Notes: a model not told the origin generated them from the letters alone. Shown: positions 1,913 through 30,630, counted from the first letter of the stretch. The stretch: 34,233 bases of DNA from Elusimicrobiota bacterium (GCA_009773155.1 WOVA01000026.1:1-34233), one strand, 5' to 3'. Numbers and translations: made by a program.

Positions 1913-1918
1913 CCGGCG

Positions 1919-2257: not shown

Positions 2258-2280
2258 GAGCTTTCTCCGTCCGGCGGTAC

Positions 2281-2307
2281 GGGGACACCATGCCGCATGA
2301 TGTCCCC
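2281..2307. repeat. Dispersed 27-bp palindrome, copy 1
   Basis: The arms GGGGACACCATG (2281-2292) and CATGATGTCCCC (2296-2307) are complementary at 11 of 12 positions around CCG. The same palindrome recurs at 31138-31164. It lies in the 161-bp gap between ftsL and ftsI, where no other signal is evident. With no T-run after it, it is not a classic terminator. A REP-like intergenic element is more likely. Confidence 0.6.
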
Positions 2308-2418
2308 CTCTGATGCGGACAAAGGAGCGGTCTTGCATGCCCCTCACCCCCGGCTTAAAAGAAAAACTGGCCGCCGTCGCGTCAGGCGGCGGAGCCTTCA
2401 GCCGCGCTTTCGACAGAC

Positions 2419-4134: not shown

Positions 4135-4143
4135 ATTTGTTAA

Positions 4144-4149
4144 TATACT
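4144..4149 (+). promoter_or_regulatory. -10-like TATACT just before murE
   Basis: TATACT lies 5 nt before the murE ATG in an AT-rich patch, with no clear -35 element and no Shine-Dalgarno between. If used it would give a leaderless murE transcript, in addition to read-through from upstream. Four other genes here show the same geometry. Confidence 0.3.
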
Positions 4150-4154
4150 TGTAA

Positions 4155-6988: not shown

Positions 6989-6991
6989 ACC

Positions 6992-8077: not shown

Positions 8078-8081
8078 GCAT

Positions 8082-9407: not shown

Positions 9408-10432
9408 TGGACCTGAACACTTTCTGGTTCCTGGTGTGGGGGCTGCTCTGGGCGGTATACCTGGCGCTCGACGGTTTCGACTTCGGCGCCTGCATGGCGC
9501 ATAATTTCATAGCCCGCACGCCCGACGAGCGGCGCGTGGTCATAAACACCATAGGCCCGGTCTGGGACGGCAACGAGGTATGGCTCGTTACCGCAGGCGG
9601 CGTCACCTTCGCGGCCTTCCCGCCGGTATACGCCTCGCTTTTCAGCGGCCTCTACACCGCGATGTTCCTGCTGCTGCTCTCGCTGATCTTCCGCGGCGTG
9701 TCCTTCGAGTTCAGGGGCAAGGTCGAAGGAGAGCGCTGGATGCGCTTCTGGGACTTCTCGATAGCCGTCGGAGGTTTTCTGCCGGCGCTGCTGCTGGGCG
9801 TCTTATTCGGCAATCTCTTCCGCGGCTTCCCGCTGGAAGGGGGTACTATAATGTACGGCTTCTTAGACCTGCTCAATCCTTACGCCCTGCTGACCGCGGT
9901 ATTCTTCATGGTGATCTTCCTGCACCACGGCCTGCTCTGGCTGGCGCTGCGCGCGGGCGGTCCGCTGGCCGACAGGGCCGCCGCGGCCGCGGGCCGGGCC
10001 TGGTATCTGGTCGCCGTCCTGCTGCTGGCCTTCCTGGCCGCCTCGCAGGCCGCCACTCAGCTGTTCGAGAACTACGCGTCCAGACCGCTGCTTTATCTGC
10101 TGCCGCTGGCCGCCGCGGCCGGCCTGATAAGGTCCAGGGCCGGCTTCTCCGGTTCGCCGCTCGGGGCCTTCGTCGGCTCCCTCGTCTTCATACTGGCCCT
10201 GGTCTTCACCGGCCTGGCCGGCATGTACCCGGACCTGATACCGGCGCTAGGCCTGCGCGGAGCGGGCCTTACCGCCTATAACTCCGCCTCGGGGGCTTAT
10301 ACGCTGAAAGTGATGACCGCCGTGGTAGGAATAGTAATGCCGGCGGTGATAGCCTACCAGTTCTGGGTATACAAGGTGTTCAGCCCCAAACTGACGACGG
10401 AAAACCTCAAGGACCTGGGGCACTACTACTGA
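9407..10432 (+). CDS. cydB: Cytochrome bd ubiquinol oxidase subunit II CydB
   Basis: A 341-residue polytopic subunit that pairs with CydA. Typical signatures are ALDGFDFGACM near the N-terminus, IGPVWDGNEVWLVTAGGV (about residues 48-65) and PYALLTAVFFMVIFLHHGLLWL mid-protein, with about eight membrane segments. The ATG at 9407 is chosen because it overlaps the cydA stop and gives the standard MDLNTFWFLVWGLLW start. The frame is open further upstream inside cydA. No cydX-like small ORF and no cydC/cydD assembly genes follow. The next gene is convergent, and no clear terminator is visible in the 24-bp gap. Confidence 0.94.
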   Translation: MDLNTFWFLVWGLLWAVYLALDGFDFGACMAHNFIARTPDERRVVINTIGPVWDGNEVWLVTAGGVTFAAFPPVYASLFSGLYTAMFLLLLSLIFRGVSFEFRGKVEGERWMRFWDFSIAVGGFLPALLLGVLFGNLFRGFPLEGGTIMYGFLDLLNPYALLTAVFFMVIFLHHGLLWLALRAGGPLADRAAAAAGRAWYLVAVLLLAFLAASQAATQLFENYASRPLLYLLPLAAAAGLIRSRAGFSGSPLGAFVGSLVFILALVFTGLAGMYPDLIPALGLRGAGLTAYNSASGAYTLKVMTAVVGIVMPAVIAYQFWVYKVFSPKLTTENLKDLGHYY

Positions 10433-10456
10433 TATAATGAATATCTCCGGTGACGG

Positions 10457-13372: not shown

Positions 13373-13523
13373 ATTTTATTTTTCTCCTGGCCTGGTATTC
13401 GCCTTAACCCTTGCAGGTCATTTTACCATATTAGGACCTGGTCCGAATTTTTGGGAGCACTTCCCCGCAAACAGCGGCGGAATTGGGTCATTTTTACGCC
13501 GGGAACAGTTTACGGATATATAG

Positions 13524-13529
13524 TATACT
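13524..13529 (+). promoter_or_regulatory. -10 element for the MNT-HEPN pair
   Basis: TATACT lies 7 nt before the ATG at 13537, inside the AT-rich run TATATAGTATACTATG. No convincing -35 is present. Transcription would start at or next to the start codon, so the mRNA may be leaderless. Confidence 0.4.
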
Positions 13530-13536
13530 ATGCGCA

Positions 13537-13863
13537 ATGAGGCCAATGGACAATGAACGGTTGAACGGCATAACTCGCCGCCTGGTTGAGGGATATAAGC
13601 CGGAAAAAATCATTCTGTTCGGATCGTCGGCAACAGGAAACCGGGATGCCTACAGCGATATAGATCTTCTCATTGTCAAATCAACAACCGAGCCGTTTCT
13701 CCGGAGACTCAGAGAAGTGGCCCCTTTATGTCCCGATGATGCCGACGTGGATTGCTTTGTCTATACGCCGGAGGAATTGCAGATAATGCTTTCCCAGGGC
13801 AACGTTTTTATCCAATCAGCCCTGAGCACAGGAAAAGTTATTTATGAAAGACCCCGTGACTGA
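13537..13863 (+). CDS. MNT-family nucleotidyltransferase (MntA-like)
   Basis: A 108-residue minimal nucleotidyltransferase. The active-site signature is intact: G29-S30, ten residues, then D41-I-D43, plus a third acidic strand at DVDCFVY (about residues 70-76). MntA proteins paired with HepT act as antitoxins that transfer AMP from ATP to the HEPN toxin. Others of this fold have unknown targets. The start is uncertain: ATG 13537 fits a leaderless mRNA, while ATG 13546 (MDNERLN) gives an equally normal length. The frame is open to 13483, but that lies upstream of the -10. It overlaps the HEPN gene by 20 bp, so the two are coupled. Confidence 0.85.
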   Translation: MRPMDNERLNGITRRLVEGYKPEKIILFGSSATGNRDAYSDIDLLIVKSTTEPFLRRLREVAPLCPDDADVDCFVYTPEELQIMLSQGNVFIQSALSTGKVIYERPRD

Positions 13864-14245
13864 AGCGGATCGGTGGCTTAAACAATCCTTGCACAATCTG
13901 GCGATTGCCCAGGGGCATAAGGGCCGGGCAGAATATGCGGAGGCATGTTTTGTTTCCGAACAGGCTGCCCAAATGGCTTTGAAGGCCTACCTCACTTTGA
14001 AAGGCGAGCGGTTTATCTTAGCCCATTCGGTAAGAAAATTAGTGGAAAAATGCGCTGTTTTTGATCCTGCCCTGGCGGAACTAATCGAACCGGGCAAAAT
14101 CCTGGATAAGTACTATCTAACCACCCGCTATCCGGATGTTTTACCGTCCCCTGCCGTTCCATGGGAAAGCTTTACTGAAAAAGAGGCAGGCGAAGCCGTA
14201 GCCTACGCGGAGAAAATTGTACAATTAGTCCAGCGGCAATTTTGA
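13844..14245 (+). CDS. HEPN-domain protein
   Basis: A 133-residue all-helical protein of the HEPN family that pairs with MNT nucleotidyltransferases. Diagnostic parts are the N-terminal DRWLKQSLHNLAIAQ helix and the central CFVSEQAAQMALKAYL segment. R56-x4-H61 (RFILAH) matches the spacing of the R-x4-6-H HEPN ribonuclease motif, but its position next to the A-H-S-V-R-K-L segment, before the last helices, is typical of the PF05168-type branch, where RNase activity is not assured. It overlaps the MNT gene by 20 bp and has AGGAAAAG upstream. The pair may be a toxin-antitoxin module or a substrate-binding/transferase complex. Sequence alone does not decide. Confidence 0.82.
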   Translation: MKDPVTEADRWLKQSLHNLAIAQGHKGRAEYAEACFVSEQAAQMALKAYLTLKGERFILAHSVRKLVEKCAVFDPALAELIEPGKILDKYYLTTRYPDVLPSPAVPWESFTEKEAGEAVAYAEKIVQLVQRQF

Positions 14246-14300
14246 TTCCTTGTTTTTGGCCGATTGATAATAATACGGGAAGCGGCAAAAAATAACAGTC

Positions 14301-16148
14301 ATGTTCCAAATCATCTCATGGTTAAAAAATACTTTTTATTCATCCGGCTTTGAGAAACTCACGGATGCCGAACTCGTCGCCCTGGCCTTTACGGGCGACC
14401 AGTTGCCTAAAGCCTGGGCCGGGGAAGTAGTCGCCAGGGGCGGGCGTCTGGTCCCGGCCCTGTCCAGCATCCTCCTTGACGAGTGCAACTGGCACCGCGG
14501 CGACGCCGGCTGGTGGGCAGTGGTTCACGCTACGTATCTTCTGGGCGCCATCGGCGGAGAGCAGGCCGTCCCCATCCTGATCCATGTCATGCGCCTGGCC
14601 GAAGAGTGGGACAATGAATGGATCAGCCACGAGATCCCTTCCATCTTCGGCCGGCTCGGCCCGAAAGCCCTGCCCTATCTCAGGAAAGAGGCATTAAACC
14701 GGAAGGCGGACTGGTATTTCCGCACCAATGCGCTTGAGGGTATGGCGGCCGTGACGCTGCGCCACCCTGAAACGGAGCGTGAGGTGTTTACTCTGGTCGT
14801 CGCCATCGCTTCGGATGCCTCTGAGGACAACGAAACACGCGCCTGGGCCGGGCGCATCCTCCTGGATTTCGGAAAGAGGGAGCACGAACCCCTGCTCCGG
14901 TCGCTGCTTGAGTCCGGCGCAGCGCGGGAAGTTTTTAACCTGGACGACCTTCAAAGCGGCATGGAAAGCCCGGATTATCACTGTTACAACAACGCCTGGC
15001 TGGACTTCTATGATCCCGAAAACATCGCTGCGCGGCGCCGGGAGGGAGAAAGTGGCCGTCTTTCGGAAAAGGAGGCCCTTGAGCAGGCAGCCAGGGCGGG
15101 GTGGGGCACGGACCCGCTGGAGGGGGATGAAGCATCCGGGGAGCCTCAAGACGAGGTCCGCCCGCCCAAAAATGCGCAGATGATCACGGAGCGCATGTCC
15201 TTCCATGCCTCGCGGGCCATCAAGGCTAAGGGGTTGGAGACGGACGAAGAAATTAATGCATACCTGAAGAGCTGCATAGGCAAGCCGCCCCGGCCCGAGG
15301 CGCCTCAGGGCGCCTGGGAGGTCGGGCAGGACCTGATGTACGAGGCCTGGCTGGAAGAGGACCCCGGCAAGCGCGTGGAAACGGCGCACAGGGCGCTTAA
15401 AATCTGCCCCGATCTGGCCGATGCCTACAACCTTCTGGCTGAGGAAACAGCCGGGAACCTGAAGGAGGCCGGAAAGCTATACGAAAAAGCGCTGCGGGCG
15501 GGCGAGCGGCAGCTTGGGCCTGACTTCTTTGCGGAGAACGCCGGCCGTTTCTGGGGCATCGTGGAGACGCGGCCATACATGCGGGCCCGGGCGGGACTGG
15601 CGCATTGTCTGTGGCTGGAAAGAGAACGCGACGAGGCCATATCCCATTGTTACGAGATGCTCCGCCTTAATCCCCATGACAACCAGGGGGTGCGCTATGC
15701 GCTGGCGTCTTACCTGAGCCGGTTAGACCGCTGGCAGGAATTGGAGAAACTCCTGGAGCGTTCGGAGTACAAGGATGACTGCGGCCTGGAATGGCTGGTT
15801 ATGAAGGCCTTATGCGCATTCGTTGGAGAAGGAGCCTCACCGCGCGCCGGGGAACTCCTTAAGGACGCCGTCAGCCATAACGATTTCCTGGCCACCTATC
15901 TCCTTGGCGACAGGCAGATACCAAAAGACCTGCCCGATTACGTCGCCCTGGGCTCGGAAGAAGAGGCCGCTTTCTGCGCCTTCGAGGTTCTGCCCGCCTG
16001 GAAAAGGGTGTCCGGAGCCTCGAATTGGCTCAGGGACGTTCTCGGCCTGGTTGTTATGCCGAAGGCGGGCCGCAACGAGCTATGTCCGTGCGGGAGCGGC
16101 AGGAAGTTCAAGAAGTGCTGCCTTGGAAAAAATCCCGCCGACCGCTAG
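14301..16148 (+). CDS. HEAT-repeat / ST7-like TPR / SEC-C zinc-motif protein
   Basis: A 615-residue soluble protein with three parts. Residues ~20-215 are HEAT-like helical repeats ([35 protein letters not shown]). Residues ~225-345 are a charged linker. Residues ~350-575 form a TPR region resembling ST7-family proteins, with [25 protein letters not shown] (from about 421) and [16 protein letters not shown]. The C-terminus has a SEC-C zinc motif, [13 protein letters not shown] (595-607), as on SecA, where it binds Zn and partner proteins. The function is unknown; an adaptor or scaffold is plausible. Ile is mostly ATC (about 15 ATC, 3 ATA and 1 ATT by eye), unlike the dcw genes, suggesting separate origin. 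The Shine-Dalgarno is weak. Confidence 0.8.
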
Positions 16149-16159
16149 CCTGCCCAAGC

Positions 16160-16263
16160 CGTCTTTCCGGCGAAAGCCGGGATCCAGGAAATGTCAACGA
16201 CACCGGCCCCCGGCTCCCGTATCAGGTACGGGATAATCTTCGCCAAGAGGCTGGCGGGGGTTA
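16160..16263. repeat. REP-like repeat unit with two hairpins
   Basis: It begins CGTCTTTCCGGCGAAAGC, with CCGGC-GAAA-GCCGG forming a tetraloop hairpin at 16167-16180. This resembles the widespread intergenic repeats whose units start CGTCATTCC and end GGAATGACG. A second hairpin, CCCGTA/TACGGG, is at 16216-16232. The right end near GGCTGGCGGGG at 16250-16260 is degraded. Only one copy is in the window, so family membership is from recognition. Confidence 0.5.
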
Positions 16264-16492
16264 TGAAAAAATTTGTTGCGCCGAGACGCCGCGGAAAAGC
16301 TGCCCGGTAAAAAATTCTTTAATTTTCCGGGAGATTACTTTCAATTTTGTAATATATTTACATGAGAATTTGGCTTGATTTTACGTGAATACCCCCGTAT
16401 CATTCGAAACCCTAGAATCATAATCAGGCAAGGAAATATTCGCAGATAACCCAAATGAGCAGACCAAATGTGTGCCTTTTTGGGCCTAATCT

Positions 16493-16514
16493 TATTTGAC
16501 GATTATTTAACTGG
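16493..16514. repeat. 22-bp direct repeat, copy 1
   Basis: This 22-mer starts TATTTGACG and ends TTTAACTGG. It matches 16560-16581 at 19 of 22 positions, and start-to-start spacing is 67 bp. Each copy is itself a tandem of two TATTTRAC half-units 11 bp apart, so the array reads as four similar boxes. It could be a regulator binding site. Confidence 0.5.
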
Positions 16515-16559
16515 AACCCTGAAATATGGGAATTTGTGTTGGAAATACAAGGACTTCTC

Positions 16560-16581
16560 TATTTGACGGCTATTTGACTGG
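16560..16581. repeat. 22-bp direct repeat, copy 2
   Basis: This is the second copy of the TATTTGAC...TTTRACTGG repeat at 16493-16514, with differences at three positions. Half-units TATTTGAC start at 16560 and 16571. It contains TTGACG and TTGACT hexamers that look like -35 boxes, but no -10 lies at 16-18 bp. Confidence 0.5.
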
Positions 16582-16613
16582 TTACAAATCGTAGGCAAAC
16601 AGCTTTGGGAAAG

Positions 16614-16630
16614 GCTACGCAGTGCGTAGC
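16614..16630. repeat. Perfect 7-bp-arm palindrome, copy 1
   Basis: GCTACGC (16614-16620) and GCGTAGC (16624-16630) flank AGT. The reverse complement of 16671-16687 matches this 17-mer at 14 of 17 positions, so the two are inverted copies of one palindromic element. Confidence 0.55.
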
Positions 16631-16668
16631 TAATCTTCCGGGCTCCCGGTGGACGGATTTTGCGCAAT

Positions 16669-16689
16669 TCGCCACGCACTGTGTGGCGA
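16669..16689. repeat. Perfect 7-bp-arm palindrome, copy 2
   Basis: TCGCCAC (16669-16675) and GTGGCGA (16683-16689) flank a 7-nt centre. It lies 23 bp before the murD start codon and is related in inverted orientation to the palindrome at 16614. In the murD mRNA leader it would form a hairpin near the ribosome site. Confidence 0.55.
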
Positions 16690-16711
16690 CCCACAGGGAA
16701 TTACAGGGTAT

Positions 16712-18085
16712 ATGAGTTTTGAACCTGCAAAATTTAAAGGCGAAAAGGCGCTGGTGATAGGCGCGGGGCGGTCGGGCCTGGCCGCCGCGCGGCTGCTGGC
16801 GAAAAAAGGTTTCCGCGTGCTGCTGAGCGACTCGGCGCCGATGAAGGACTTTAAGCCCAGGCTTAAGGGCCTGCCGCGCGCCGTGGAAGTCGAGGCGGGG
16901 GGGCACAGCGGCGCGATACTCTCCTGCGGCTTCGCCGTCAAAAGCCCCGGCCTGCCCGCGCGCGCGCCGGTTTTCAAAAGGCTTAAAGCGGCAGGCATAC
17001 CCGTTTTCAGCGAGATAGAAATCGCGCTGGCCTTTTCCAAGGCGGGCAGGATCCTGGCCGTAACCGGCACCAACGGCAAGACCACGACCACCGAACTGCT
17101 GGGCCTGCTGATGAAAGCGGCGGCGCGGCGGCGCGGCACGCGGGCCTTCGTCTGCGGGAACCTCGGCGTGCCCGCGGCCGCTACGGCGCCAAAAGCCGGC
17201 CCGAAGGACGCGCTGGTCATGGAACTCTCCAGCTACCAGCTGGAGGACAGCTCCGGGGTCTCCCCCGACGCGGCCTGCGTGCTCAACATAACGCCGGACC
17301 ATCTCGATCATCACGGCGGCCTGGCCGCCTATGTCGCCGCCAAAGCGAAGATCTTCGCCGGCCAGCGGCCCGGCGCGGTCTGCGTTTTCAATTACGAGAA
17401 CGCCGCCTGCCGCCGGCTGGCCCGGCGCTGCCCGGCGCGGGTGCTGTTCTTCTCCTCGCGCAGGCGCGGGGGAAAACTGAGCGCGTGGACGGAGAAAGGA
17501 AGGCTGGTCTTCCGGACCGGCGCCGTCTCCTTCACCGTAGAGCCGCCGCCGCTGCCCGGGCGGCATAACCTGGAGAACGCGATGTGCGCGGGCCTGATGG
17601 CGCTGTCCTGCGGCGCGCGTCCGGCGGACCTGCGCGCGGTCTTCGCCTCTTTCAAAGGCGTGGAGCACCGCCTGGAGACCGTACGGACGCTGCGCGGAGT
17701 GACCTATATAAACGATTCCAAAGCGACCAATGTGGATTCCACCGTCACGGCGCTGCGCACGCCGGGCGGCGGGAAGAATATCTGGCTGATACTGGGCGGG
17801 CTGGACAAGGGCGCGCCTTACGCGCCGCTGCGCCCGCTCGTCAAAGCATCGGTCAAAACAATACTGACGATAGGGAAAGCCGCGCCGCTTATAGAGAAAG
17901 AGCTGCGCGGCTCCGCGCCGATAGAGAGGGCCTTAACGCTGGAGCGGGCGCTTAAAAAAGCGGCGGCAGCGGCGCGGCCAGGCGACATGGTACTTCTCTC
18001 GCCCGCCTGCGCCTCTTTCGACCAGTTCCGCGATTTCGAGCACCGGGGCGCGGAGTTCAAGCGCCTCGCCGGGAGGCTCAAGTGA
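16712..18085 (+). CDS. murD: UDP-N-acetylmuramoylalanine--D-glutamate ligase MurD
   Basis: A 457-residue Mur ligase adding D-Glu to UDP-MurNAc-L-Ala. The N-terminal Rossmann-like domain has LVIGAGRSGLAAARLL, the P-loop GTNGKTT is at 119-125, MELSSYQLE and NITPDHLDHHGG follow, then PGRHNLENAMCA, KGVEHRLE, and the C-terminal YINDSKATNVDSTVTAL and SPACASFDQF typical of MurD. ATG 16712 gives the usual start. The frame is open upstream to 16649, but that runs through a palindrome and lacks MurD homology. It is the first gene after the palindrome-rich gap and overlaps ftsW by 4 bp (GTGA). Confidence 0.95.
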   Translation: MSFEPAKFKGEKALVIGAGRSGLAAARLLAKKGFRVLLSDSAPMKDFKPRLKGLPRAVEVEAGGHSGAILSCGFAVKSPGLPARAPVFKRLKAAGIPVFSEIEIALAFSKAGRILAVTGTNGKTTTTELLGLLMKAAARRRGTRAFVCGNLGVPAAATAPKAGPKDALVMELSSYQLEDSSGVSPDAACVLNITPDHLDHHGGLAAYVAAKAKIFAGQRPGAVCVFNYENAACRRLARRCPARVLFFSSRRRGGKLSAWTEKGRLVFRTGAVSFTVEPPPLPGRHNLENAMCAGLMALSCGARPADLRAVFASFKGVEHRLETVRTLRGVTYINDSKATNVDSTVTALRTPGGGKNIWLILGGLDKGAPYAPLRPLVKASVKTILTIGKAAPLIEKELRGSAPIERALTLERALKKAAAAARPGDMVLLSPACASFDQFRDFEHRGAEFKRLAGRLK

Positions 18086-19239
18086 GGCGCCGCTATTCCG
18101 CCGCGCGCGGGGGAGGAAGCGGCCTCTTCTCCGGCCTCTTCACCTCGCGCAGCCTGCGCTACGCCGACTACCATTTCCTGATAGCGGTGGCGGCGCTGCT
18201 GATGATCGGCCTGGTCTCGCTCTATTCCGCCAGCGCCATCTACGCCGAGAACAAGGGCCTGCCCTCTTTCTTCTACCTCAAGCGGCAGCTGATCTGGACC
18301 TTCGCCGGGCTGGGCGCCATGTGGCTGGCGATGAACCTGGAGCTGGAAAAGTTCCGCCGGTTCATAAAGCCGCTCATGATCCTGACGCTGGCGCTGCTGG
18401 TGGTCACGCTGTTCATGCCCCCGATAGCGAACGTGCGCCGCTGGATACCGCTGGGCTTCATGAACCTGCAGGTCAGCGAATTCGCCAAGCTGGCGGTGGT
18501 GCTCTACCTGGCCGACTACTTCGACAAGAACATAAGCCGCATGCTCAAGGACTGGCGGCAGCTGATAAAGCCGCTGACGGTCACGCTGCTGGCGCTGCTG
18601 CTGATCGGCATACAGCCCGACCTGGGCACGCCGGCGCTGATCTTCGCCGTGGCGCTGATGATGCTGTTCTGCTCCGGCGTGCGGCTGCGCTACATCCTGG
18701 CGCCGCTGGGCGTAGGACTGCTCATCTTCGTAGCGGAGATGCTGCGCAAGTCCTACCGCCTGGACCGCCTTAAGAATTTCCTTTCGCCCTGGGACGACGC
18801 CTCCGGCACGGGCTACCAGCTGGTGCAGTCGCTGCTGGCCGTCGGCTCCGGCGGCTGGTTCGGGGTCGGGCTGGGCGCCTCCAAACTCAAACTGATGTAC
18901 CTGCCGGAGCCGCATACCGACTTCATCTTCCCGGTGGTCGCGGAAGAGCTGGGGCTCTTCGGCGCGCTGCTGATAGCCGGGCTTTTCGGCTACCTGCTGC
19001 TGCGCGGCCTCCGGCTGGCCCGCAACGCGACGTCCTTCTTCTCGGCCATAGCCGCTTCGGGCATGGTGCTGATCATCTGCCTGCAGGCTTTTTTCAATAT
19101 GGCCATGACGCTGGGACTGACCCCGACCAAGGGCATACCGCTGCCTTTCTTCTCCTACGGCGGCTCCTCGATGATCACCATGCTGCTGGCGGCCGGCTTC
19201 GTGCTCAATGTCTCGGCCCACAGGAAGGCTTCCTTATGA
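18082..19239 (+). CDS. ftsW: SEDS-family septal peptidoglycan glycosyltransferase FtsW
   Basis: A 385-residue polytopic membrane protein that polymerises lipid II at the septum together with FtsI. About ten membrane segments are visible. SEDS signatures include LVSLYSASAIYA in the first segment, KRQLIWTFAGLGAMW, NVRRWIPLGFMNLQVSEFAKLA (the conserved R-W...QPSE-like block, with QVSE here), IGIQPDLGTPAL, and GLTPTKGIPLPFFSYGGSSM near the C-terminus. The start is a GTG overlapping the murD stop. RodA is the paralogous alternative, but position between murD and murG favours FtsW. Confidence 0.92.
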   Translation: MRRRYSAARGGGSGLFSGLFTSRSLRYADYHFLIAVAALLMIGLVSLYSASAIYAENKGLPSFFYLKRQLIWTFAGLGAMWLAMNLELEKFRRFIKPLMILTLALLVVTLFMPPIANVRRWIPLGFMNLQVSEFAKLAVVLYLADYFDKNISRMLKDWRQLIKPLTVTLLALLLIGIQPDLGTPALIFAVALMMLFCSGVRLRYILAPLGVGLLIFVAEMLRKSYRLDRLKNFLSPWDDASGTGYQLVQSLLAVGSGGWFGVGLGASKLKLMYLPEPHTDFIFPVVAEELGLFGALLIAGLFGYLLLRGLRLARNATSFFSAIAASGMVLIICLQAFFNMAMTLGLTPTKGIPLPFFSYGGSSMITMLLAAGFVLNVSAHRKASL

Positions 19240-20369
19240 CGATCGTTAAAAAGAGGCGCGCGCTGATAGCCGCGGGGGGAACGGGCGGCCATTTCTACCC
19301 CGGCCTCGCGCTGGGCCGCGAGCTGGCCCGGCGGGGCTGGCAGGTACTCTTCCTGGTAAAGGAGGGTGATATCTCCGCGGCGGCTCTGGATGCGGAAGGG
19401 CTGCCCTACGCCGAAATACCCGCGGCGGCGCTGCCGCGCTCGCTCAACCCGCTGCGTCACGCCCGGTTCCTGGTCAAATTCTTCTCAGGCCTGCGGCGGA
19501 CGTCGCGGATACTCGCCGATTATTCGCCGGACGCCGTCTTCGGCGCCGGCAGCTATGTTTCTTTCCCGGCGGTACTGCTGGCGGCGCTGCGCGGCGTCCC
19601 GCGCGTCGTGCACGAATCCAACGCCGTCTTCGGCCTGGGCAACCGGATAGCGGGAGCTTTCTGCCCGGCGGTGGCGCTGGGACTGCCCCTGGAAAAAAAC
19701 CCCTTCGCCGGCAAGACGGTAATGACCGGTACGCCGGTACGGGAATTCATTCCGTCCGCCGTCTCCCGTGAAGAGGCGCGGGCCCTGCTAGGCCTAAAAG
19801 CCTCGCCTCCCGTGGTGGCCGCCTTCGGCGGCAGCCAGGGAGCGTCCGCGCTCAACTCCGCGCTGGCCGCCGCGGCCGGCAGTCTCAGGGCGGAGGGCGC
19901 GGCCTTCCAGATCCTGCACGTCGCCGGCAAAGGGAACGGGGAAAGCACCCGGCTCGCTTACGCGGCCGCGGGCCTTGGAGGCGACCCCGGGATCAAAGTT
20001 CTCGATTACTGCGCGGAGATGGACCTGCTCTACGCCGCGGCCGACATACTAGTCTCTCGGGCCGGGGCGAGCACCGTCGCGGAACTGGCGGCGGTCAGAA
20101 AGCCGGCCATTCTGGTCCCGCTGCCGACCTCGGCCGGCGGACACCAGGCCGCCAATGCCGCCGTCCTGGCCCGCGCGGGAGCGGCCGTCAGCCTGCCGCA
20201 GGACGCGGGACTGGCGGAAGCCATGGCGGCGGAACTGAGCCGCCTGCTGGGCGGCAAAGAGGCGGCCGCCGCGATGTCGGCGGCTTACGATATAGCCGGC
20301 ATACCCGATCCTCTCAAGGCGGCGTCCGCGCTGGCCGATCTGATGGAAGGGAAGAATTACCGGGGTTAA
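19236..20369 (+). CDS. murG: UDP-GlcNAc:lipid I GlcNAc transferase MurG
   Basis: A 377-residue peripheral membrane GT28 glycosyltransferase that turns lipid I into lipid II at the cytoplasmic face. The N-terminal glycine-rich motif GGTGGHFYPGLAL (14-26) and SYVSFPAVLLA with HESNAVFGLGNR bind the lipid side. AFGGSQGASALN opens the C-terminal domain, and SRAGASTVAEL with PLPTSAGGHQAANA binds UDP-GlcNAc. The ATG overlaps the ftsW stop (ATGA). It is the last recognisable dcw gene in the window. The expected murC/ddl/ftsQAZ genes do not follow. Confidence 0.95.
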   Translation: MTIVKKRRALIAAGGTGGHFYPGLALGRELARRGWQVLFLVKEGDISAAALDAEGLPYAEIPAAALPRSLNPLRHARFLVKFFSGLRRTSRILADYSPDAVFGAGSYVSFPAVLLAALRGVPRVVHESNAVFGLGNRIAGAFCPAVALGLPLEKNPFAGKTVMTGTPVREFIPSAVSREEARALLGLKASPPVVAAFGGSQGASALNSALAAAAGSLRAEGAAFQILHVAGKGNGESTRLAYAAAGLGGDPGIKVLDYCAEMDLLYAAADILVSRAGASTVAELAAVRKPAILVPLPTSAGGHQAANAAVLARAGAAVSLPQDAGLAEAMAAELSRLLGGKEAAAAMSAAYDIAGIPDPLKAASALADLMEGKNYRG

Positions 20370-22727: not shown

Positions 22728-23750
22728 ATGAAGACCATCATGAACGCGCTCGCCGGGATAATTTTCCTCTCCGTCCTCGCAGTTACGGCCTCGGCGGAGA
22801 ACAAGGTCATCTACGGCGAAGACGACCGGCTGGATTATTTCGAGGCCCCCGCCTCCAGGAAAGCCCTGGCCGACTCCGTCGTTTCACTCTGGAACTCCTA
22901 CAAGGTGACCAGGGACGGCGCCAACTACAAGTTATCCACGATGAAATTCGCCGACGCCAACAACCTCTGCGCCGGGGAGCGATTCCGCGAGCAGCAGAAA
23001 GGCGCTTTCTGCTCCGGGTCGCTGGTAGGAGAGGACCTGGTCATGACGGCCGGGCACTGCATACGCAATCCCCCTGTAAATAGCGCCAACGGCGAGACCT
23101 GCGCCAGCACCAGGCTGGTCTTCGGCTTCGCCATCAAGTCGCGCGGCGGCAGTTCCCCGTCGACCGTGCCCGAGGCGGACGTCTATTCCTGCAAAGAGAT
23201 AGTGACGCACGGGCTGGACAACGGCGGGGCCGATTTCGCCATAATACGTCTTGACCGCAAGGTCGCGGGCCGCAAACCCCTGCCGGTGCACCGCGGCGCC
23301 AGTCTTAAAAAGGGCGCCGGGATGTTCGTCATAGGCCATCCCTCGGGGCTGCCGCTCAAGGTGGCCGAAGGGGCCAGCGTGCGCGACGCCTCCAATTCCA
23401 CGCACTATGTCGCCGACCTCGACACCTACGGGGGGAATTCCGGCTCGCCGGTCTTCGACTCCAGGACCAGCCTGATAGCCGGCATACTGGTGCGTGGCGA
23501 CACAGACTTCGTGACCACCGCCGAGGGCTGCCGCCGGTCCAACGTCATCGGCCAGAACGAGGGCCGGGGCGAGGACGTGACCAAAGTCTCCCAGTTGTCG
23601 GCCAGCGTTCCCAAAACCGCCCTGACCGGGGAGACAGAGCCCGCCGAGGCCCCGTCCCGCGAAGTCCGCCTGGAAAGCGTGGACGCCATAAGGGAATCGT
23701 TCGGGGATTCTTTCTCCATAGAGGTGCCCGAAATAGCCGTGCCCGAATAA
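22728..23750 (+). CDS. Secreted trypsin-like serine protease (first of tandem pair)
   Basis: A 340-residue chymotrypsin-fold protease. A Sec signal peptide (MKTIMNALAGIIFLSVLAV, likely cut after ASA at 23) is followed by the catalytic domain. The triad is His110 in MTAGHC, Asp169 in GADFAIIRLD and Ser238 in DTYGGNSGSPVF. Cys95 and Cys111 could form the usual disulfide beside the active-site His. The C-terminal ~55 residues are acidic and low in conservation. GGAGG sits 7 nt before the ATG. It is followed by a strong terminator, so it is monocistronic. Specificity cannot be assigned; V8-like glutamyl endopeptidases share this style. Confidence 0.9.
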   Translation: MKTIMNALAGIIFLSVLAVTASAENKVIYGEDDRLDYFEAPASRKALADSVVSLWNSYKVTRDGANYKLSTMKFADANNLCAGERFREQQKGAFCSGSLVGEDLVMTAGHCIRNPPVNSANGETCASTRLVFGFAIKSRGGSSPSTVPEADVYSCKEIVTHGLDNGGADFAIIRLDRKVAGRKPLPVHRGASLKKGAGMFVIGHPSGLPLKVAEGASVRDASNSTHYVADLDTYGGNSGSPVFDSRTSLIAGILVRGDTDFVTTAEGCRRSNVIGQNEGRGEDVTKVSQLSASVPKTALTGETEPAEAPSREVRLESVDAIRESFGDSFSIEVPEIAVPE

Positions 23751-23943: not shown

Positions 23944-24951
23944 ATGAACAACATCGCGCTGACAACACTGTTTCTGGCGGTATCCATCCTTCCCTCTTCT
24001 CTCAAAGCCGAAAACAAGGTCATCTACGGCGACGACGACCGGCTGGAATATTTCGAGGCCCCCGCCGCCCAGCGCAGGCTGGCCGACTCGGTGGTTTCCC
24101 TGTGGCAGTCCTGGGACCTGACGCGGGAGCAGGACGGCTACAAACTGCGTACGGCTAAATTCGCGGACGCGGTCGGCGTCTGCGAGAAAGAACCTTTCTC
24201 CCAGCAGCCTATCGGGGCCTTCTGCTCGGGCGCGCTGGTCGGAGAGGACCTGGTCATGACCGCCGGCCACTGCATAAGGAACCAGGCGGACTGCGCCGAC
24301 ACGATGTTCGTTTTCGGCTTCCGGAACGACGAGTCCGGGACCGCTCCGGACCGGGTGCCGGCCTCCGATGTCTACGCCTGCGCCAAGATAGAGAAGTGGT
24401 TCCTCCGCGGCAGCCCGACCCCCGTAGAGCCAGGCACGGCCGGCCTCGGCGCTGATTACGCCCTTATCCGCATAGACCGCAAGGCCGCGGGCAGAACTCC
24501 GCTGCCGGTAAACCGCGGCGCGGTCCCCGCCAAAGGCGCGCCCCTGTTCGTTATCGGTCACCCGGTCGGACTGCCCCTCAAAGTGGCCGGCGGCGCGGCC
24601 GTCCGCGATTCCTACCAGGATGGGTATTTCGTGGCTAACCTGGACACTTACGGCGGCAATTCCGGCTCGCCGGTATTCAACCGCGACACGAACCTTATCG
24701 AAGGGATACTGGTGCGGGGAGAGACAGATTTCGTCTACGAAGGCAATTGCCGTGTCTCCTACCGGGTCGCCGACGACGGGGGCCGGGGCGAGGACGTCAC
24801 CAAGGTCTCCGAACTGGCGGAATTCATACCCCGGTCGGAGGGGGAACCGGACCGCGCGGACCTGACCGCGGCCCTGGCCGGCCTGCGCGAAGTGAACCTC
24901 TCGGCTCTCGCGTCCATAACCGGCTCGCTGGCCCCGCGCTTCCTGCATTGA
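23944..24951 (+). CDS. Secreted trypsin-like serine protease (second of tandem pair)
   Basis: A 335-residue paralogue of the preceding gene. The mature N-termini are nearly identical (AENKVIYG, then DDRLEYFEAPA), and the shared LADSVVSLW, GEDLVMTAGHCIRN, VIGHP, and LDTYGGNSGSPVF blocks are retained. The triad is His109, Asp171 and Ser240. The signal peptide is MNNIALTTLFLAVSILPSS, likely cut after LKA. Main differences are an insertion before the Asp loop (KWFLRGSPTPVEPGTAG) and a different C-terminal tail. ACGGAGGA precedes the ATG. It has its own upstream palindrome and terminator, so the two genes are separate units under probably common control. Confidence 0.9.
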   Translation: MNNIALTTLFLAVSILPSSLKAENKVIYGDDDRLEYFEAPAAQRRLADSVVSLWQSWDLTREQDGYKLRTAKFADAVGVCEKEPFSQQPIGAFCSGALVGEDLVMTAGHCIRNQADCADTMFVFGFRNDESGTAPDRVPASDVYACAKIEKWFLRGSPTPVEPGTAGLGADYALIRIDRKAAGRTPLPVNRGAVPAKGAPLFVIGHPVGLPLKVAGGAAVRDSYQDGYFVANLDTYGGNSGSPVFNRDTNLIEGILVRGETDFVYEGNCRVSYRVADDGGRGEDVTKVSELAEFIPRSEGEPDRADLTAALAGLREVNLSALASITGSLAPRFLH

Positions 24952-25046: not shown

Positions 25047-25715
25047 ATGGGGAACCGAAAGAGAAAAAGCCGGGCCTTGACCGCGTTCGGGACCGCGCTT
25101 TGCGGCGCGGCGCTGCTTCTGCAGGCCTGCGCCCGGCCGGACGCTCACCAGGCCCTTATCGAGGCCATCAGGAAAGACGACAGGGCGGAAGTTTCACGGC
25201 TTATAGACGCGGGTGTCCCGGTCAACCCCGCGACCTCCAGGACTTTCACTCCTCTCATGATGGCCGTCATGCGCGACAACGCCGGGATGACGGAGCTGCT
25301 GCTGGACAAGGGCGCCGCCATAAGGGCCAGGGAAACCCGCGTACAGACCCCGCTTCATCTGGCCGCCCGGTGGAACAAGCCGGCCGCGCTAAAGGTCCTC
25401 CTCGCCCGCCACGCGCCGACGGAGGACAGGGACAAGATCACCTGGACGCCCCTGATGTGGGCGGCGCTGCGCGGACACACCCGGGTATGCGAAGAGCTGG
25501 CGCTCGCCGGCGCCGCGGTCAACGCGCGCGACTACGACAACAATACTCCGCTCATGCTGGCGGCCGGGCGGGGGCACTTGGATACGGCGAAAAAGCTGGT
25601 CTCGCTGGGCGCGAGACCGGACGCGAAGAACAAAGAAGGACTAGACGCCGCCGGCGTCGCCAGGAAGAACGAGTTCCCGAAAGTGGCCGCCGAACTGGAG
25701 AAACTCTCCCGCTGA
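25047..25715 (+). CDS. Ankyrin-repeat lipoprotein
   Basis: A 222-residue predicted lipoprotein. A basic start (MGNRKRKSR) and hydrophobic core lead to the lipobox LQAC with Cys28. The rest is five to six ankyrin repeats: HQALIEAIRKDDRAEVSRLIDAG, TPLMMAVMRDNAGMTELLLDKG, TPLHLAARWNKPAALKVLLARH, TPLMWAALRGHTRVCEELALAG and TPLMLAAGRGHLDTAKKLVSLG. Ankyrin repeats bind other proteins, so this is likely a membrane-anchored periplasmic binding module. The partner is unknown; the neighbouring secreted proteases are one possibility by proximity only. It ends 5 bp before the end of the convergent kinase gene. Confidence 0.85.
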   Translation: MGNRKRKSRALTAFGTALCGAALLLQACARPDAHQALIEAIRKDDRAEVSRLIDAGVPVNPATSRTFTPLMMAVMRDNAGMTELLLDKGAAIRARETRVQTPLHLAARWNKPAALKVLLARHAPTEDRDKITWTPLMWAALRGHTRVCEELALAGAAVNARDYDNNTPLMLAAGRGHLDTAKKLVSLGARPDAKNKEGLDAAGVARKNEFPKVAAELEKLSR

Positions 25716-25719
25716 GCCG

Positions 25720-27621
25720 TCAGGCGGACAGCGGCAGGGTGAAGTAGAAGGTGGATCCTTTCCCTATTTCGCTGACGGCCCAGATCCGCCCGCCATGCAG
25801 CCGGATGAACTCCTTCACTATGGCCAGGCCCAGTCCCACGCCGTCGCGGTGCCTGTTCGACTTTATCTGAACGAACTTGTCGAAGACCTTGTCCAGGTCC
25901 TCTTTCGCGATCCCGTGCCCGGTGTCCCTGACTCCTATCACGGCCGTGCCGTCCTTCCTGGGCGAGGGGGAAGCCGCCACTATTATGGTCCCTCCGGAGG
26001 GAGTGGCCTTCATCGCGTTGGATATGAGGTTGGTCAGCACCTGCACCATCTTCTCGTGGTCGGCCAGCACGGTCAGGTCGGGGGCTGGGGGTCTTAAGAC
26101 CAGGCTTATGTTCCTGGTGCGCGACCAGGGAATAAGCCCTTCCCCGGCCTCGTTTATGATGGCCGAGACCGGCACCGGCTTGGGATTGACTTCCATCTTT
26201 CCCGACTGCAGTTTGGAAAAATCGAGTATTCCCTTTATCATATTGACCAGCCGGTGGCTGTTGCGCACGCTTATGTCCAGGAATTTACCTTCGGTCTGGT
26301 CCAGTCTGGTCCCGGCGCTCTCGGTCAGCATCTCCAGGGCGGAAGTTATAGAGGAAAGCGGGGACTGCAGGTCGTGCGTGATGCGGGAAAGGAACTCCTC
26401 CTGCAGCCGCTCGGCCTCCTTGAACTTCATGATGTCCGGCAGCGTGGTATAGGCGCCGATGACGCGGCCCTCGTCGTCCTCCAGCAGGGCGAAGGAGCCG
26501 CGCACAGCCTTCTCCACGCTCTCGTCGCCGGCCACGCTGACCTCTCCCGTCGGAACGCGCCCGGCAGAGAGGTCTATGTCCTCCGATAGGGCCAGGAAAT
26601 GCTCGCCGGGCTTTATGTGCTCGGTTATGTGATGCCCGGCCAGTTCCAGGAACTTCTTGCCGGCTATCGCCTCGGCGGCGGGGTTCATCATGAGGATGCG
26701 CCCCTGCCTGTCGATTATCATCTTGCCTTCGGCGACGGTGGAAAGGACCTGCTCCGTCCTGGCCCTGGTATTTATCGCCAGCGTCTTCTCCGCCTGCATG
26801 GTCCTGGTCGCTTCTTCGACCTGCTTGTCCATGGCGTCCTTTATCATCCCCAGCGCCTCTTCGTAGGCGTGCACCCTGGCCTTTGGGTCCTTCACCGAGG
26901 ATTCCACCAGGCCTTTCACCAGGTTCCCCAGGCTTATCGACTTCAGTGCCCCGCCCTGGTCCGCCGCCCCTTCCGGGGCGGGTGCCGGGGCGGCGGACGA
27001 CGGGACCCCCTGACGGCCGGCGCCGGTACCGGCGCCGTACGGCTTCTTGTCTTCCGGCATGGAGGGGGAAAAAGGCGGCGAGGCCGCTCCGGCCGGGGAC
27101 TCCATCACGGCGGCCCTGACATAACGGACGGATTCGGGCTTTATGTTCTCGACGCCGCGCTGGGACATGAACTCCGAGAAAAAACCCTCAGGCTGGTTCT
27201 TGGCGGCCGTGCCGAAAAACTCGCATACGGCGCCCAGTTCGAAACTCCTGACTCCCGCCTTGAAGGTCAGCCCCTTCAGACCGTGGTTCTTGAAATGCAC
27301 GGCTACGTTCTGAGATTCGCCCGGGACCGAGGGGACTATGTCGCCGTTGAAAAGCCAGTTCTCCTGCTCGGCGGAGATGGTCAGAGAGGGCGCCCTGGAG
27401 GCGGCGAGGATGGAAGAAAGTATGGCGAAGGACTTACCGACGGCTTCCATGACCACCGGGTGGCTCAGGCGGTAAAGCGCGGTCACCTTAACGGCCTTGG
27501 ACAACGAAAGCAGGAACTCGTAGCAGAGTCCGGGATAGGACATGGGATAAGGGTCCGCCCCTCCTCCGGCGGAAGGCGCGTGCGTGCCGTATTCGTCGTC
27601 GCGCGTTTCCATAAATATCAC
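25720..27621 (-). CDS. Soluble PAS-containing sensor histidine kinase
   Basis: A 633-residue kinase without membrane segments. Residues ~30-170 are a helical/mixed domain with LYRLSHPVVMEAV, of a kind seen at the N-terminus of bacterial signalling proteins but unnamed to me. A Pro/Ala linker follows, then a coiled coil (~245-295), a PAS domain (~290-400, MIIDRQGRILMMNPAAEAI), a HisKA helix with phospho-acceptor His416 in FLSRITHDLQSPL, and the ATPase domain with NLISN (531-535), DTGHG (566-570) and GVGLGLA (594-600). The GTG at 27621 overlaps the REC-PilB stop (GTGA). ATG 27612, with GGGGTG before it, is an alternative start. The overlap suggests it acts on that partner. Confidence 0.88.
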   Translation of the reverse strand: MIFMETRDDEYGTHAPSAGGGADPYPMSYPGLCYEFLLSLSKAVKVTALYRLSHPVVMEAVGKSFAILSSILAASRAPSLTISAEQENWLFNGDIVPSVPGESQNVAVHFKNHGLKGLTFKAGVRSFELGAVCEFFGTAAKNQPEGFFSEFMSQRGVENIKPESVRYVRAAVMESPAGAASPPFSPSMPEDKKPYGAGTGAGRQGVPSSAAPAPAPEGAADQGGALKSISLGNLVKGLVESSVKDPKARVHAYEEALGMIKDAMDKQVEEATRTMQAEKTLAINTRARTEQVLSTVAEGKMIIDRQGRILMMNPAAEAIAGKKFLELAGHHITEHIKPGEHFLALSEDIDLSAGRVPTGEVSVAGDESVEKAVRGSFALLEDDEGRVIGAYTTLPDIMKFKEAERLQEEFLSRITHDLQSPLSSITSALEMLTESAGTRLDQTEGKFLDISVRNSHRLVNMIKGILDFSKLQSGKMEVNPKPVPVSAIINEAGEGLIPWSRTRNISLVLRPPAPDLTVLADHEKMVQVLTNLISNAMKATPSGGTIIVAASPSPRKDGTAVIGVRDTGHGIAKEDLDKVFDKFVQIKSNRHRDGVGLGLAIVKEFIRLHGGRIWAVSEIGKGSTFYFTLPLSA

Positions 27622-29771
27622 CCCATCATTATCTTCAGCGCCTCGCCTATCGAAGTCGTTCCCGCTTCGACGGCCGCCAGGGCGGCCTCGCGGAGGGAGG
27701 TCATGCCTTCGCGCATCGCCAGGCGGTTGAGCTCGTCCACGTCGGTCCTGGTGGTTATCATGTTGCGCATCCCGGAACTCTCTATCGGCATGACCTCGAA
27801 AACGGGTTTACGGCCGGAATAGCCCGTGTGATGGCAATGGTGGCAGCCGACGGGGCGATAGATATGACCCAGCCGCCCCGTCTCCTTTTCCGTAAGGAAA
27901 GACCTGTCCTCTTCGGTAAGCGCGGCCGCGGCCTTGCAGTGTTCGCAGAGCCTGCGTACCAGCCGCTGGGCTATGACCATCTTGACGCTGGCGGCGACCA
28001 GGTACGGGGCCACGCCCATATGCGTCAGCCTGGTTATGGTGGCCGGGGCGCTGTTGGTGTGCAGCGTCGAGAATACCAGGTGGCCGGTTATCGAAGCCTT
28101 TATGGCTATCTCGGCCGTCTCCAGGTCGCGTATCTCTCCGACCAGCATGATATCCGGGTCCTGGCGCAGGAAGGCGCGCAGCGTGGATTCGAAGGTGAGG
28201 CCGACGGCCGGGCGTATCTTTACCTGGTTGATGTTGGGCACCTCGTATTCCACCGGGTCCTCGGCCGTCATGATGTTCACGTCCGGCTTGTTGAGCACGT
28301 TTATCATTGTATAGAGGGTGGTGGTCTTGCCGGAACCGGTGGGGCCGGTCACGAGTACGAGGCCGTTGGGGCTTTTGAGGGCGATCTCCACCGCGTGGCG
28401 CTCGCGTGGATTGAGGGCCAGTTGCTCAAGGTCCGAGTTGAGCTTGCTCTGCCCGAGGATGCGCAGCACTATCTTCTCGCCCTTCAGGCAGGGCAGCGTG
28501 CTGACGCGGAACTCTATCTTCTGGCCGCGCATCTGCACGCGGAACTGGCCGTCCTGGGGGATACGGCGTTCGGTTATGACCAGGCTGCTCATTATCTTCA
28601 GCCTCGCAGTCAGCCGGGGATGTATGGATATGGGCAGGGTGGTGAGCTGCTTAAGCACCCCGTCGACCCGTACGCGCACCGACACCCGGGTCTCCTGCGG
28701 TTCTATGTGTATGTCGGAAGCGCGCATATCCACCGCCGCCGCCAGTATCTTGTTGACCCTCTGTATCAGGGGCGAGTCCTTGGCGAGGTTCTCAAGGCCG
28801 ATGGTCTCGGTCGCCTCCTCCCTGCTCTCGGCGGCGCTATCGAGAACTTCCAGTTCGCTGTCGTTCTCGGCCAGGGCTTCCTCTATCTCCGGGACCTCCT
28901 CGGCCTGGGCCTCGGGCACGGCCTGCCCAGCGGGGGCGGACTCCGGCTGCGGGTCCGGCTCGTAGCGCGGCAATTCTATAGCCGCCGGCCCCTGAGGTTC
29001 CGACGGGGGAGCCGCCGGGGCGGCATAGTCCTGGGCCGGCGCCGGGGACTGGTACTCCTGCGCGAAACGCTCGATAGCTATGGAAGGAGGAGCGGGCTCC
29101 ACGACCTGCTCCGGCTGCGCCGTGGGAGCGGCCCTCTGTTCAGCGGGACGCGGCGCCGGCTTAGGCGGCTGGCCCGGGCGGGACCCCAGGGCCCTGGCGA
29201 CGCTTTCGAGCAGTTTCATGTTGGGAACCGGCTTCTCGAGGAATTCCGTTATGTCCATGTTCAGCGCGCGCAGGTGCTGGCGGTTGGTGGCCCCGGTGAA
29301 CATTATTATCCTGATGTCGTGCGTATCCACATTGCTGCGTACTTCCTGTATAAGTTCGTAGCCGTTCATCTTGGGCATGTTGAAGTCCACCAGCATCAGG
29401 TCGGGGATGGAAGCCTGTATCAAAGCCAGGGCTTCTATGCCGTTGCCCGCCTCCAGCACCTTGTAATGATTCACTTCCAGCAGATGACGGACCAGTTCCC
29501 TGTAATCCTTGTTATCGTCCACCACCAGGATGGTCCTGGCCGGGGGAGGCATTTTCTGGGGCTGTAGGGAGGCGGGCCTGGCGGCCGGAGAAGGCGCGTT
29601 GCGCGCCGCCGGCTCGGGGCGGGAAACCAGGGGGGGAGTGACCGTCGCTTTCCTGAGACCGTTGGAGAGCGGCGGCGGGGGAGGGATATGGACGCGGCCC
29701 TCTTCAGGAGGCACGGCGTCCCTGAACATATCGCCTATATCGGCGTCCCGCCCCTCTTTTTTCTCTTCCAT
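27618..29771 (-). CDS. Receiver-domain fused PilB/GspE-type ATPase
   Basis: A 717-residue hexameric-type secretion/pilus motor with an unusual front end. Residues ~79-195 are a complete receiver domain: acidic pair D85-D86, phospho-acceptor D129, T159 and K180. A Pro/Ala-rich linker (~197-300) follows. The GspE/PilB core begins near 332 (PLIQRVNKILAAAVDMRASDIHIEP) and has Walker A GPTGSGKT (476-483), the Asp box TAEDPVEYE, Walker B DIMLVGEIRD (540-549), the His box STLHTN, and a tetracysteine zinc site C609-x2-C612/C643-x2-C646 typical of assembly ATPases. The usual MshEN/N1 domain is not evident. Other pilus genes are absent nearby. It overlaps the kinase gene by 4 bp. Confidence 0.9.
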   Translation of the reverse strand: MEEKKEGRDADIGDMFRDAVPPEEGRVHIPPPPPLSNGLRKATVTPPLVSRPEPAARNAPSPAARPASLQPQKMPPPARTILVVDDNKDYRELVRHLLEVNHYKVLEAGNGIEALALIQASIPDLMLVDFNMPKMNGYELIQEVRSNVDTHDIRIIMFTGATNRQHLRALNMDITEFLEKPVPNMKLLESVARALGSRPGQPPKPAPRPAEQRAAPTAQPEQVVEPAPPSIAIERFAQEYQSPAPAQDYAAPAAPPSEPQGPAAIELPRYEPDPQPESAPAGQAVPEAQAEEVPEIEEALAENDSELEVLDSAAESREEATETIGLENLAKDSPLIQRVNKILAAAVDMRASDIHIEPQETRVSVRVRVDGVLKQLTTLPISIHPRLTARLKIMSSLVITERRIPQDGQFRVQMRGQKIEFRVSTLPCLKGEKIVLRILGQSKLNSDLEQLALNPRERHAVEIALKSPNGLVLVTGPTGSGKTTTLYTMINVLNKPDVNIMTAEDPVEYEVPNINQVKIRPAVGLTFESTLRAFLRQDPDIMLVGEIRDLETAEIAIKASITGHLVFSTLHTNSAPATITRLTHMGVAPYLVAASVKMVIAQRLVRRLCEHCKAAAALTEEDRSFLTEKETGRLGHIYRPVGCHHCHHTGYSGRKPVFEVMPIESSGMRNMITTRTDVDELNRLAMREGMTSLREAALAAVEAGTTSIGEALKIMMG

Positions 29772-29901: not shown

Positions 29902-30630
29902 TCAACGGCGGCGGGGGCGGCAGCGGCGGCCGCCGCGGTAGCAGGAGGGGGTATCTCCGACGATCTTCTCGAACCGGCGGATGAACGACTCGGCGTTGGA
30001 ATAGCCGAGCCGGGCGGAGACCTCTTTCACCGTCATGGGAGTGGAGCGCAGCAGCCTGCGGGCCCGCGCCATCCGGGCCCTGAGCTTGAAATCCTCGAAC
30101 TTCATCCCGGTGCGCTCATGGAAAAGACGGCTCAGATATTTTGGGGAAAGGAAAACGGCCTCGGCGGCGTCCTTCAGCGAAACGCGGCCCAGGCAGTTGG
30201 CCTCCACGAAGCGTTTCACGTGCTCCACCTTGCCTTCCATGTCCAGCCCGGCCGCGCTGGCGGCGCCGGAAACCGAAAGGAGCTGCTTCTCTATGGCGGC
30301 GCGCATGGTCTTTATGTCGAAAGGCTTCTCCACGTAGCCGTCCGCCCTGGCGGTCAGCGCGCTTATAGCCGTCTCCTTGCTGCTGTAGCCCGTCACTATC
30401 AGGACCCGGCGGGGGTGCGTCGAAGACTTTATCTTCTCCAGCGCGGTAAGGCCGTCCATGCCCGGCATCTGCACGTCCATGATGACCAGGTCGAAATCGT
30501 TGGGGCGGGACAGGGCGCGCAGCGCCTCCGGCGCGCCCGAAGCCTCGGTAAAGGAATACTCCGGGAACCAGAGCCGGAAATTCGTCCTTAGCTCAGCGTT
30601 GTCGTCGACAAGCAGTATTTTTCTTTTCAT
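29902..30630 (-). CDS. Response regulator with AraC-type DNA-binding domain
   Basis: A 242-residue two-domain regulator. The receiver domain (1-120) has D9-D10, phospho-acceptor Asp52 in LVIMDVQMPGMDG, T80 and K102. The C-terminal AraC/XylS domain (~130-235) has two helix-turn-helix units, VSLKDAAEAVFLSPKYLSRLFHERTG and MTVKEVSARLGYSNAESFIRRFEKIVG, and an Arg-rich tail. AAGGG sits just before the ATG. It lies 130 bp upstream of the REC-PilB gene on the same strand, so it could share the same kinase or control that operon. No kinase is directly adjacent to it. A plus-oriented CCCG/CGGG-T6 hairpin follows its stop. Confidence 0.9.
   Translation of the reverse strand: MKRKILLVDDNAELRTNFRLWFPEYSFTEASGAPEALRALSRPNDFDLVIMDVQMPGMDGLTALEKIKSSTHPRRVLIVTGYSSKETAISALTARADGYVEKPFDIKTMRAAIEKQLLSVSGAASAAGLDMEGKVEHVKRFVEANCLGRVSLKDAAEAVFLSPKYLSRLFHERTGMKFEDFKLRARMARARRLLRSTPMTVKEVSARLGYSNAESFIRRFEKIVGDTPSCYRGGRRCRPRRR

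Follow-up and report, generated by a model that had tools for sequence, protein, structure and literature searches.

The known inputs to pilus extension motors are cyclic di-GMP (c-di-GMP), acting on the MshEN domain, and separate adaptor proteins. Here we describe REC-PilB, a pilus-extension-type ATPase that carries a receiver (REC) domain in the position usually taken by MshEN, and whose gene overlaps that of a soluble histidine kinase. Both genes lie in a stretch of 34,233 nucleotides from an Elusimicrobiota bacterium (GCA_009773155.1, WOVA01000026.1:1-34233), the whole of which is called the window.

In excerpts of two reviews (PMC11656802, PMC10333796), the control of PilB is listed as occurring by c-di-GMP via MshEN, by PilZ/FimX and by trans-acting response regulators; a receiver-fused motor is not described in these excerpts. 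Wang 2016 (PMC5013675) reports that MshEN can occur with REC in other proteins; its excerpted text does not report a receiver that replaces MshEN on a motor. We found no description of the REC-PilB fusion in the open-licence literature, so the architecture may already have an entry in domain databases.

Results

An earlier reading of this DNA from its sequence alone (the sequence-only reading) had proposed a receiver domain fused to a PilB/GspE motor, with an overlapping kinase gene. Pfam searches and residue checks bore out its coordinates and strands, as well as the catalytic residues of the receiver and the phosphoacceptor histidine of the kinase (Table 1). The motor itself retains intact Walker A, Asp box, Walker B, His box and tetracysteine motifs, each invariant or nearly so across 38 aligned fusions.

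Table 1. Features of the REC-pilB locus, in window coordinates
Feature	Coordinates	Strand	Details
REC-PilB, 717-aa pilus-extension-type ATPase with N-terminal receiver domain	27618..29771	-	PF00072 + PF00437
REC domain, residues 79-192	29196..29537	-	PF00072 at 81-191, E 3.7e-24; D85, D86, D129, T159, K180
Ala/Pro/Glu-rich linker, residues 193-329	28785..29195	-	Usual MshEN/N1 position; no Pfam match
N2 + catalytic T2SSE domain, residues 330-717	27621..28784	-	PF00437 at 330-712, E 2.9e-132
GTGA overlap, ATPase stop/kinase GTG start	27618..27621	-	4 nt
Soluble histidine kinase HKN-PAS-HisKA-HATPase, 633 aa	25720..27621	-	Pfam domains, His416
HKN domain, kinase residues 28-165, undescribed alpha/beta domain	27127..27540	-	AlphaFold2 predicted local distance difference test (pLDDT) 92, predicted TM-score (pTM) 0.86
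PAS domain, kinase residues 288-398	26428..26760	-	PAS_9 4.3e-05, PAS 1.3e-04
HisKA dimerisation/phosphoacceptor domain, kinase residues 407-474	26200..26403	-	Pfam; His416
HATPase_c catalytic domain, kinase residues 521-632	25726..26061	-	Pfam
AraC-type response regulator, REC + HTH_18	29902..30630	-	Upstream of REC-pilB

The absence of an evident MshEN/N1 domain, also part of the sequence-only reading, was upheld: Pfam gave no match to MshEN (PF05157) in REC-PilB. The stretches on either side of REC (residues 1-78 and 192-329) are rich in Pro, Ala and Glu, and mean identity to the orthologues is 20% in residues 1-78 and 33% in the linker, versus 59% in REC and 69% in T2SSE. Because residues 1-78 and 193-329 have this composition and drift freely, a hidden regulatory domain there is unlikely, and a hidden MshEN/N1 domain was rejected. 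Disordered linkers occupy the usual MshEN/N1 position. By contrast, MshEN is present in the genome's canonical PilB (PF05157, E 2e-19).

Family models, solved structures and genetic linkage to PilT favour a PilB over a GspE identity for the predicted motor. The best NCBIfam model is type_IV_pilB (TIGR02538; 544.6 bits versus 501.0 for GspE), and the closest solved structures are those of Geobacter PilB (5zfr and 5tsg). A PilT gene lies directly upstream of REC-pilB in five distant loci (domains checked for L095 and L097), and this operon PilT groups with the PilT encoded on contig C40 of the source genome with a Shimodaira-Hasegawa approximate likelihood ratio test (SH-aLRT) support of 100. 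Apparent versions of REC-PilB of 860 to 1020 residues (L097, L101 and L103) have no extra domains; their N-terminal extensions are out-of-frame reads of the upstream pilT.

The sequence-only reading had proposed a survey of the architecture, which is not limited to one genome: of the phylum's 341 genomes, 44 yielded relatives in a search with the ATPase domain (E<=1e-125), so that a single-assembly artefact was rejected. Across all 42 aligned fusions D86, D129 and K180 are invariant, and position 159 is T or S in all except L091 and L100. We read 40 loci from the 44-genome set plus further ones, 45 of which were usable for counting gene pairs. The HKN kinase gene lies on the same strand directly 3' of REC-pilB, or after a tetratricopeptide repeat (TPR) gene, in 37 of these 45. 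The pairing spans families f1, f11, f13, f14 and f15, although the genes further out vary. Since the arrangement is kept across five families, it is beyond chance. In family f1 the motor and kinase genes touch, usually at -4 nt, and nearly all loci that lack the TPR gene have the -4 overlap or a gap of +1 to +6. The TPR gene (about 250 residues) separates motor and kinase in 18 loci and is found in most loci outside f1; in distant families the order is (pilT)-REC-pilB-TPR-kinase. In one relative (G185, L098:6187-8385, minus strand), REC-PilB is split by a stop codon into two open frames, with the TPR and kinase genes open; this is either a pseudogene or an assembly error.

Thus, the kinase gene adjoins the motor gene in most loci and not always, the exceptions being L091, L100, L106, L108, L225, L226, L227 and L229. 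The joint loss of T159 and the kinase in L091 and L100 (Fisher p 0.04) was not used as evidence, since the two are sisters and their losses are probably one event. Five of the eight loci, L106, L225, L226, L227 and L229, encode divergent REC-PilB proteins. L226 adjoins a UDP-glucose dehydrogenase gene, L225 adjoins two CheY-like genes, and the neighbour of L227 is a kinase that lacks HKN and is encoded on the opposite strand.

The kinase has the HisKA histidine, and its HATPase domain contains the N, G1 and G2 boxes; the catalytic residues are conserved among the kinases, with the phosphoacceptor histidine kept in 32 of 32. No transmembrane-like segment was detected in it (19-residue hydropathy maximum, 1.63), in keeping with the soluble PAS kinase of the sequence-only reading. 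Its start inside the ATPase stop codon likewise holds for the GTG codon; an alternative ATG 9 nt downstream would abolish the overlap.

The N-terminal HKN domain had no Pfam match, no consistent NCBIfam match and no PDB fold at E<=0.001; it corresponds to no described domain. AlphaFold2 confidently predicted a helix-helix-strand-strand-helix-strand-helix-helix-strand topology. Strong matches to an HKN profile were found in 38 genomes, 36 of them among the 44 with REC-PilB; in the other two, the kinase gene is beside a partial ATPase gene at a contig end (G181) or the locus leaves the contig on the TPR side (G206). The close-family HKN kinase is therefore restricted to REC-PilB genomes. Weaker matches represent a paralogous kinase present in most genomes of the class, which in the loci examined adjoins genes for UDP-sugar dehydrogenase, epimerase and tryptophanyl/tyrosyl-tRNA synthetase. 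HKN is thus common to two kinase paralogues of the class, and it occurs also at L245:1411-3312 and other class-B loci. A weak resemblance of HKN to the N termini of HD-GYP proteins that adjoin the operon (7.6 bits) is a lead only.

A tree of ATPase domains separated 47 other PilB/GspE sequences, including the source genome's own, from a single group (SH-aLRT 99) made up of all 42 fusions and one further protein, L228. In a tree of REC domains, all of the fusion receivers fell together (SH-aLRT 96) when compared with 58 other receivers, in a clade that also contains one additional sequence. Since both trees group the fusions, REC and motor moved together, and each looks as if it had a single origin, in what was apparently one fusion. 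L228 (G185:C73), which has MshEN in place of REC (PF05157, E 1.1e-07), is the nearest relative of REC-PilB to carry that domain and may show the ancestral head; node support between it and the fusions is low, and both a loss of REC and an earlier branching are compatible with the tree. Several separate two-component genes lie in its neighbourhood.

Of 120 other PilB/GspE relatives sampled, mostly from other phyla and some from this phylum, not one carried REC; an MshEN-type domain was detectable in 106. No REC fusion was present in the 80 loci kept from a profile scan of contigs across many phyla, in which some of the long matches were MshEN-PilB followed by PilT. True fusions always reach the REC part of the search profile; with weaker matches cut off, no match did so among the 4 to 8 candidates scored per genome in 148 genomes of the phylum of L111 (labelled Nitrospirae) or in 247 genomes of the phylum of L163 (labelled Syntrophaceae), a result that falls short of proof that the fusion is absent from these two phyla. 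There was likewise no match into the REC part in 13 single genomes, and none of the 5000 best-scoring plasmid records covered 80% of the query.

The source genome has nine T2SSE matches, and its T2SSF platform genes are found only on contigs C73, C27 and C85. No PilC-type platform gene was found near REC-pilB or on its contig (C52), and no pilin genes were found around it; the genes scanned at 561-20369 are mostly a cell wall cluster (mraW, penicillin-binding protein [PBP], mur ligases, mraY-like, ftsW and murG). Because no platform gene is nearby, REC-PilB most likely acts in trans, sharing a platform that has its own separate motor. Contig C85 also encodes a CpaF-type ATPase with an N-terminal MinD/ParA-like (CpaE/TadZ-like) domain (L006:1252-3501, minus strand; a 750-residue frame), after which come two T2SSF platform genes.

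The AraC-type regulator gene that the sequence-only reading placed upstream is present, and is separated from REC-pilB by 130 nt that include a promoter-like site (29847-29819, minus strand; a consensus match only); it is probably a separate transcription unit. It is a lineage-specific neighbour: an AraC-type regulator lies upstream in f1 only and an OmpR-type one in genus g64 (L087 and L088), with neither in the other families. In one f1 locus (L074), a REC-HD-GYP regulator gene lies directly 3' of the kinase gene. The kinase may therefore feed the motor branch everywhere, and a gene expression or c-di-GMP branch in some lineages. HD-GYP proteins are encoded directly upstream of pilT or REC-pilB at L101:3600-5036, L102:4960-6600 and L104:8877-10340, and their N termini are possibly HKN-like; c-di-GMP turnover may meet the phospho-switch at these loci. 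The suggestion of the sequence-only reading that phosphorylation takes the place of c-di-GMP control was too simple, given these HD-GYP neighbours in several relatives and the MshEN-PilB retained by the genome.

Elsewhere in the window, two similar secreted trypsin-like proteases (22728-23750 and 23944-24951, plus strand; Trypsin_2 detected in the first) are likely to be a tandem duplication. An ankyrin-repeat protein with a lipoprotein-like N terminus (25047-25715) adjoins the pair.

Discussion

In this study, we have identified a PilB-type motor with a complete receiver domain that is encoded, in most of its relatives, beside an HKN kinase. We consider it reasonably probable that REC-PilB is an accessory, phospho-gated type IV pilus extension motor that works on a shared platform and has a dedicated kinase partner. 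The kinase would use HKN and PAS to integrate a signal from the cytoplasm and would autophosphorylate on His416, and the phosphate would then pass to D129 of REC-PilB. Once phosphorylated, the REC domains may pack or pair differently around the hexamer, or dock differently to the platform, and the altered state would set whether the motor drives extension. REC-PilB would probably act in trans on an existing machine, paired with the PilT orthologue encoded on C40.

Several points weigh against this proposal. We infer the phosphotransfer and its effect on motor activity, like the platform used and the signal, from the genes and their arrangement, and motor and pilus function are assigned by homology. 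The TIGR02538 score is under the curated equivalog cut-off of 675.65 bits, because the N-terminal domain is missing and the match begins at model position 144. Six of the eight loci without an adjoining HKN kinase gene retain every REC residue; these must therefore be served by a different kinase, unless REC functions in some other way. Furthermore, the congruence of the kinase and REC trees mostly reflects shared ancestry, with a partial correlation of 0.34 once the ATPase signal is removed, and covariation beyond shared ancestry is weak.

The main rival to gating is a role in localisation, in which REC sets where the motor works, at a pole or on a given platform, and phospho-REC binds a partner, such as the TPR protein, while the motor is always active. 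Domains of the MshEN/N1 type are proposed, in an excerpted review (PMC11656802), to contact the inner-membrane platform, so a REC at the same site is suitably located to dock, and with a disordered linker as long as this one (about 137 residues), tight allosteric coupling to the ATPase is less obvious. In 18 loci such a partner would be encoded by the TPR gene that separates motor from kinase; however, f1, the source locus included, lacks this gene, and we judge this explanation to be unlikely. A quite improbable alternative is that the ATPase works not with pili but with a type II secretion-like machine or another machine of the type IV filament kind, as the high score of the GspE models and the lack of pilin and platform genes around REC-pilB might suggest. 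It was PilB that scored higher in both the NCBIfam and PDB searches, however, and the operon neighbour in five loci is the pilus retraction ATPase PilT.

It is also conceivable that the main partner of the kinase is the AraC-type or another regulator, and that the motor's receiver forms a minor branch or serves as a phosphate sink. The intact AraC-type regulator upstream in f1, its OmpR-type counterpart in g64 and the REC-HD-GYP regulator right after the kinase in L074 are consistent with this idea. The transcription-type regulators differ by lineage, however, whereas the pair of REC-PilB and kinase is constant, and the AraC-type gene is set apart by its gap and promoter-like site, whereas motor and kinase overlap; this explanation is accordingly very unlikely.

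On the phospho-gating reading, we tentatively suggest, at slightly less than even chances, that these proteins are a class of type IV pilus motor in their own right, of single origin, whose extension ATPase doubles as the response regulator of a dedicated two-component system. With its own PilT, TPR protein and HKN kinase, the ATPase would form a phospho-gated motor cassette swapped onto platforms encoded elsewhere, and HKN would be a new sensory or docking domain. A receiver on the motor would be the shortest possible path from a sensor kinase to pilus dynamics, one by which a sensor may throttle the motor directly. The fusion also shows that the regulatory head of PilB is exchangeable in evolution, the motor staying intact, and a reversible, defined modification makes the gating of the PilB hexamer by its N-terminal domain a testable question.

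REC-PilB shares with the MshEN-bearing motors PilB, MshE and GspE the N2 and catalytic T2SSE core, all of the motifs and the presence of an N-terminal regulatory domain; it differs from them in that a receiver replaces the c-di-GMP receptor MshEN and that a dedicated kinase gene adjoins. As outlined in excerpted reviews (PMC11656802, PMC10333796), PilG/PilH of the Pil-Chp system, FimX and PdeR likewise place PilB-driven extension under receiver or two-component control; however, these are separate proteins that act via cyclic AMP, c-di-GMP or scaffolds, whereas the receiver of REC-PilB is covalently within the motor. A HisKA kinase and a co-encoded REC protein with the full set of catalytic residues are likewise paired in canonical two-component systems whose output domains are enzymes. 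Unlike in those systems, the output of REC-PilB is a hexameric traffic ATPase.

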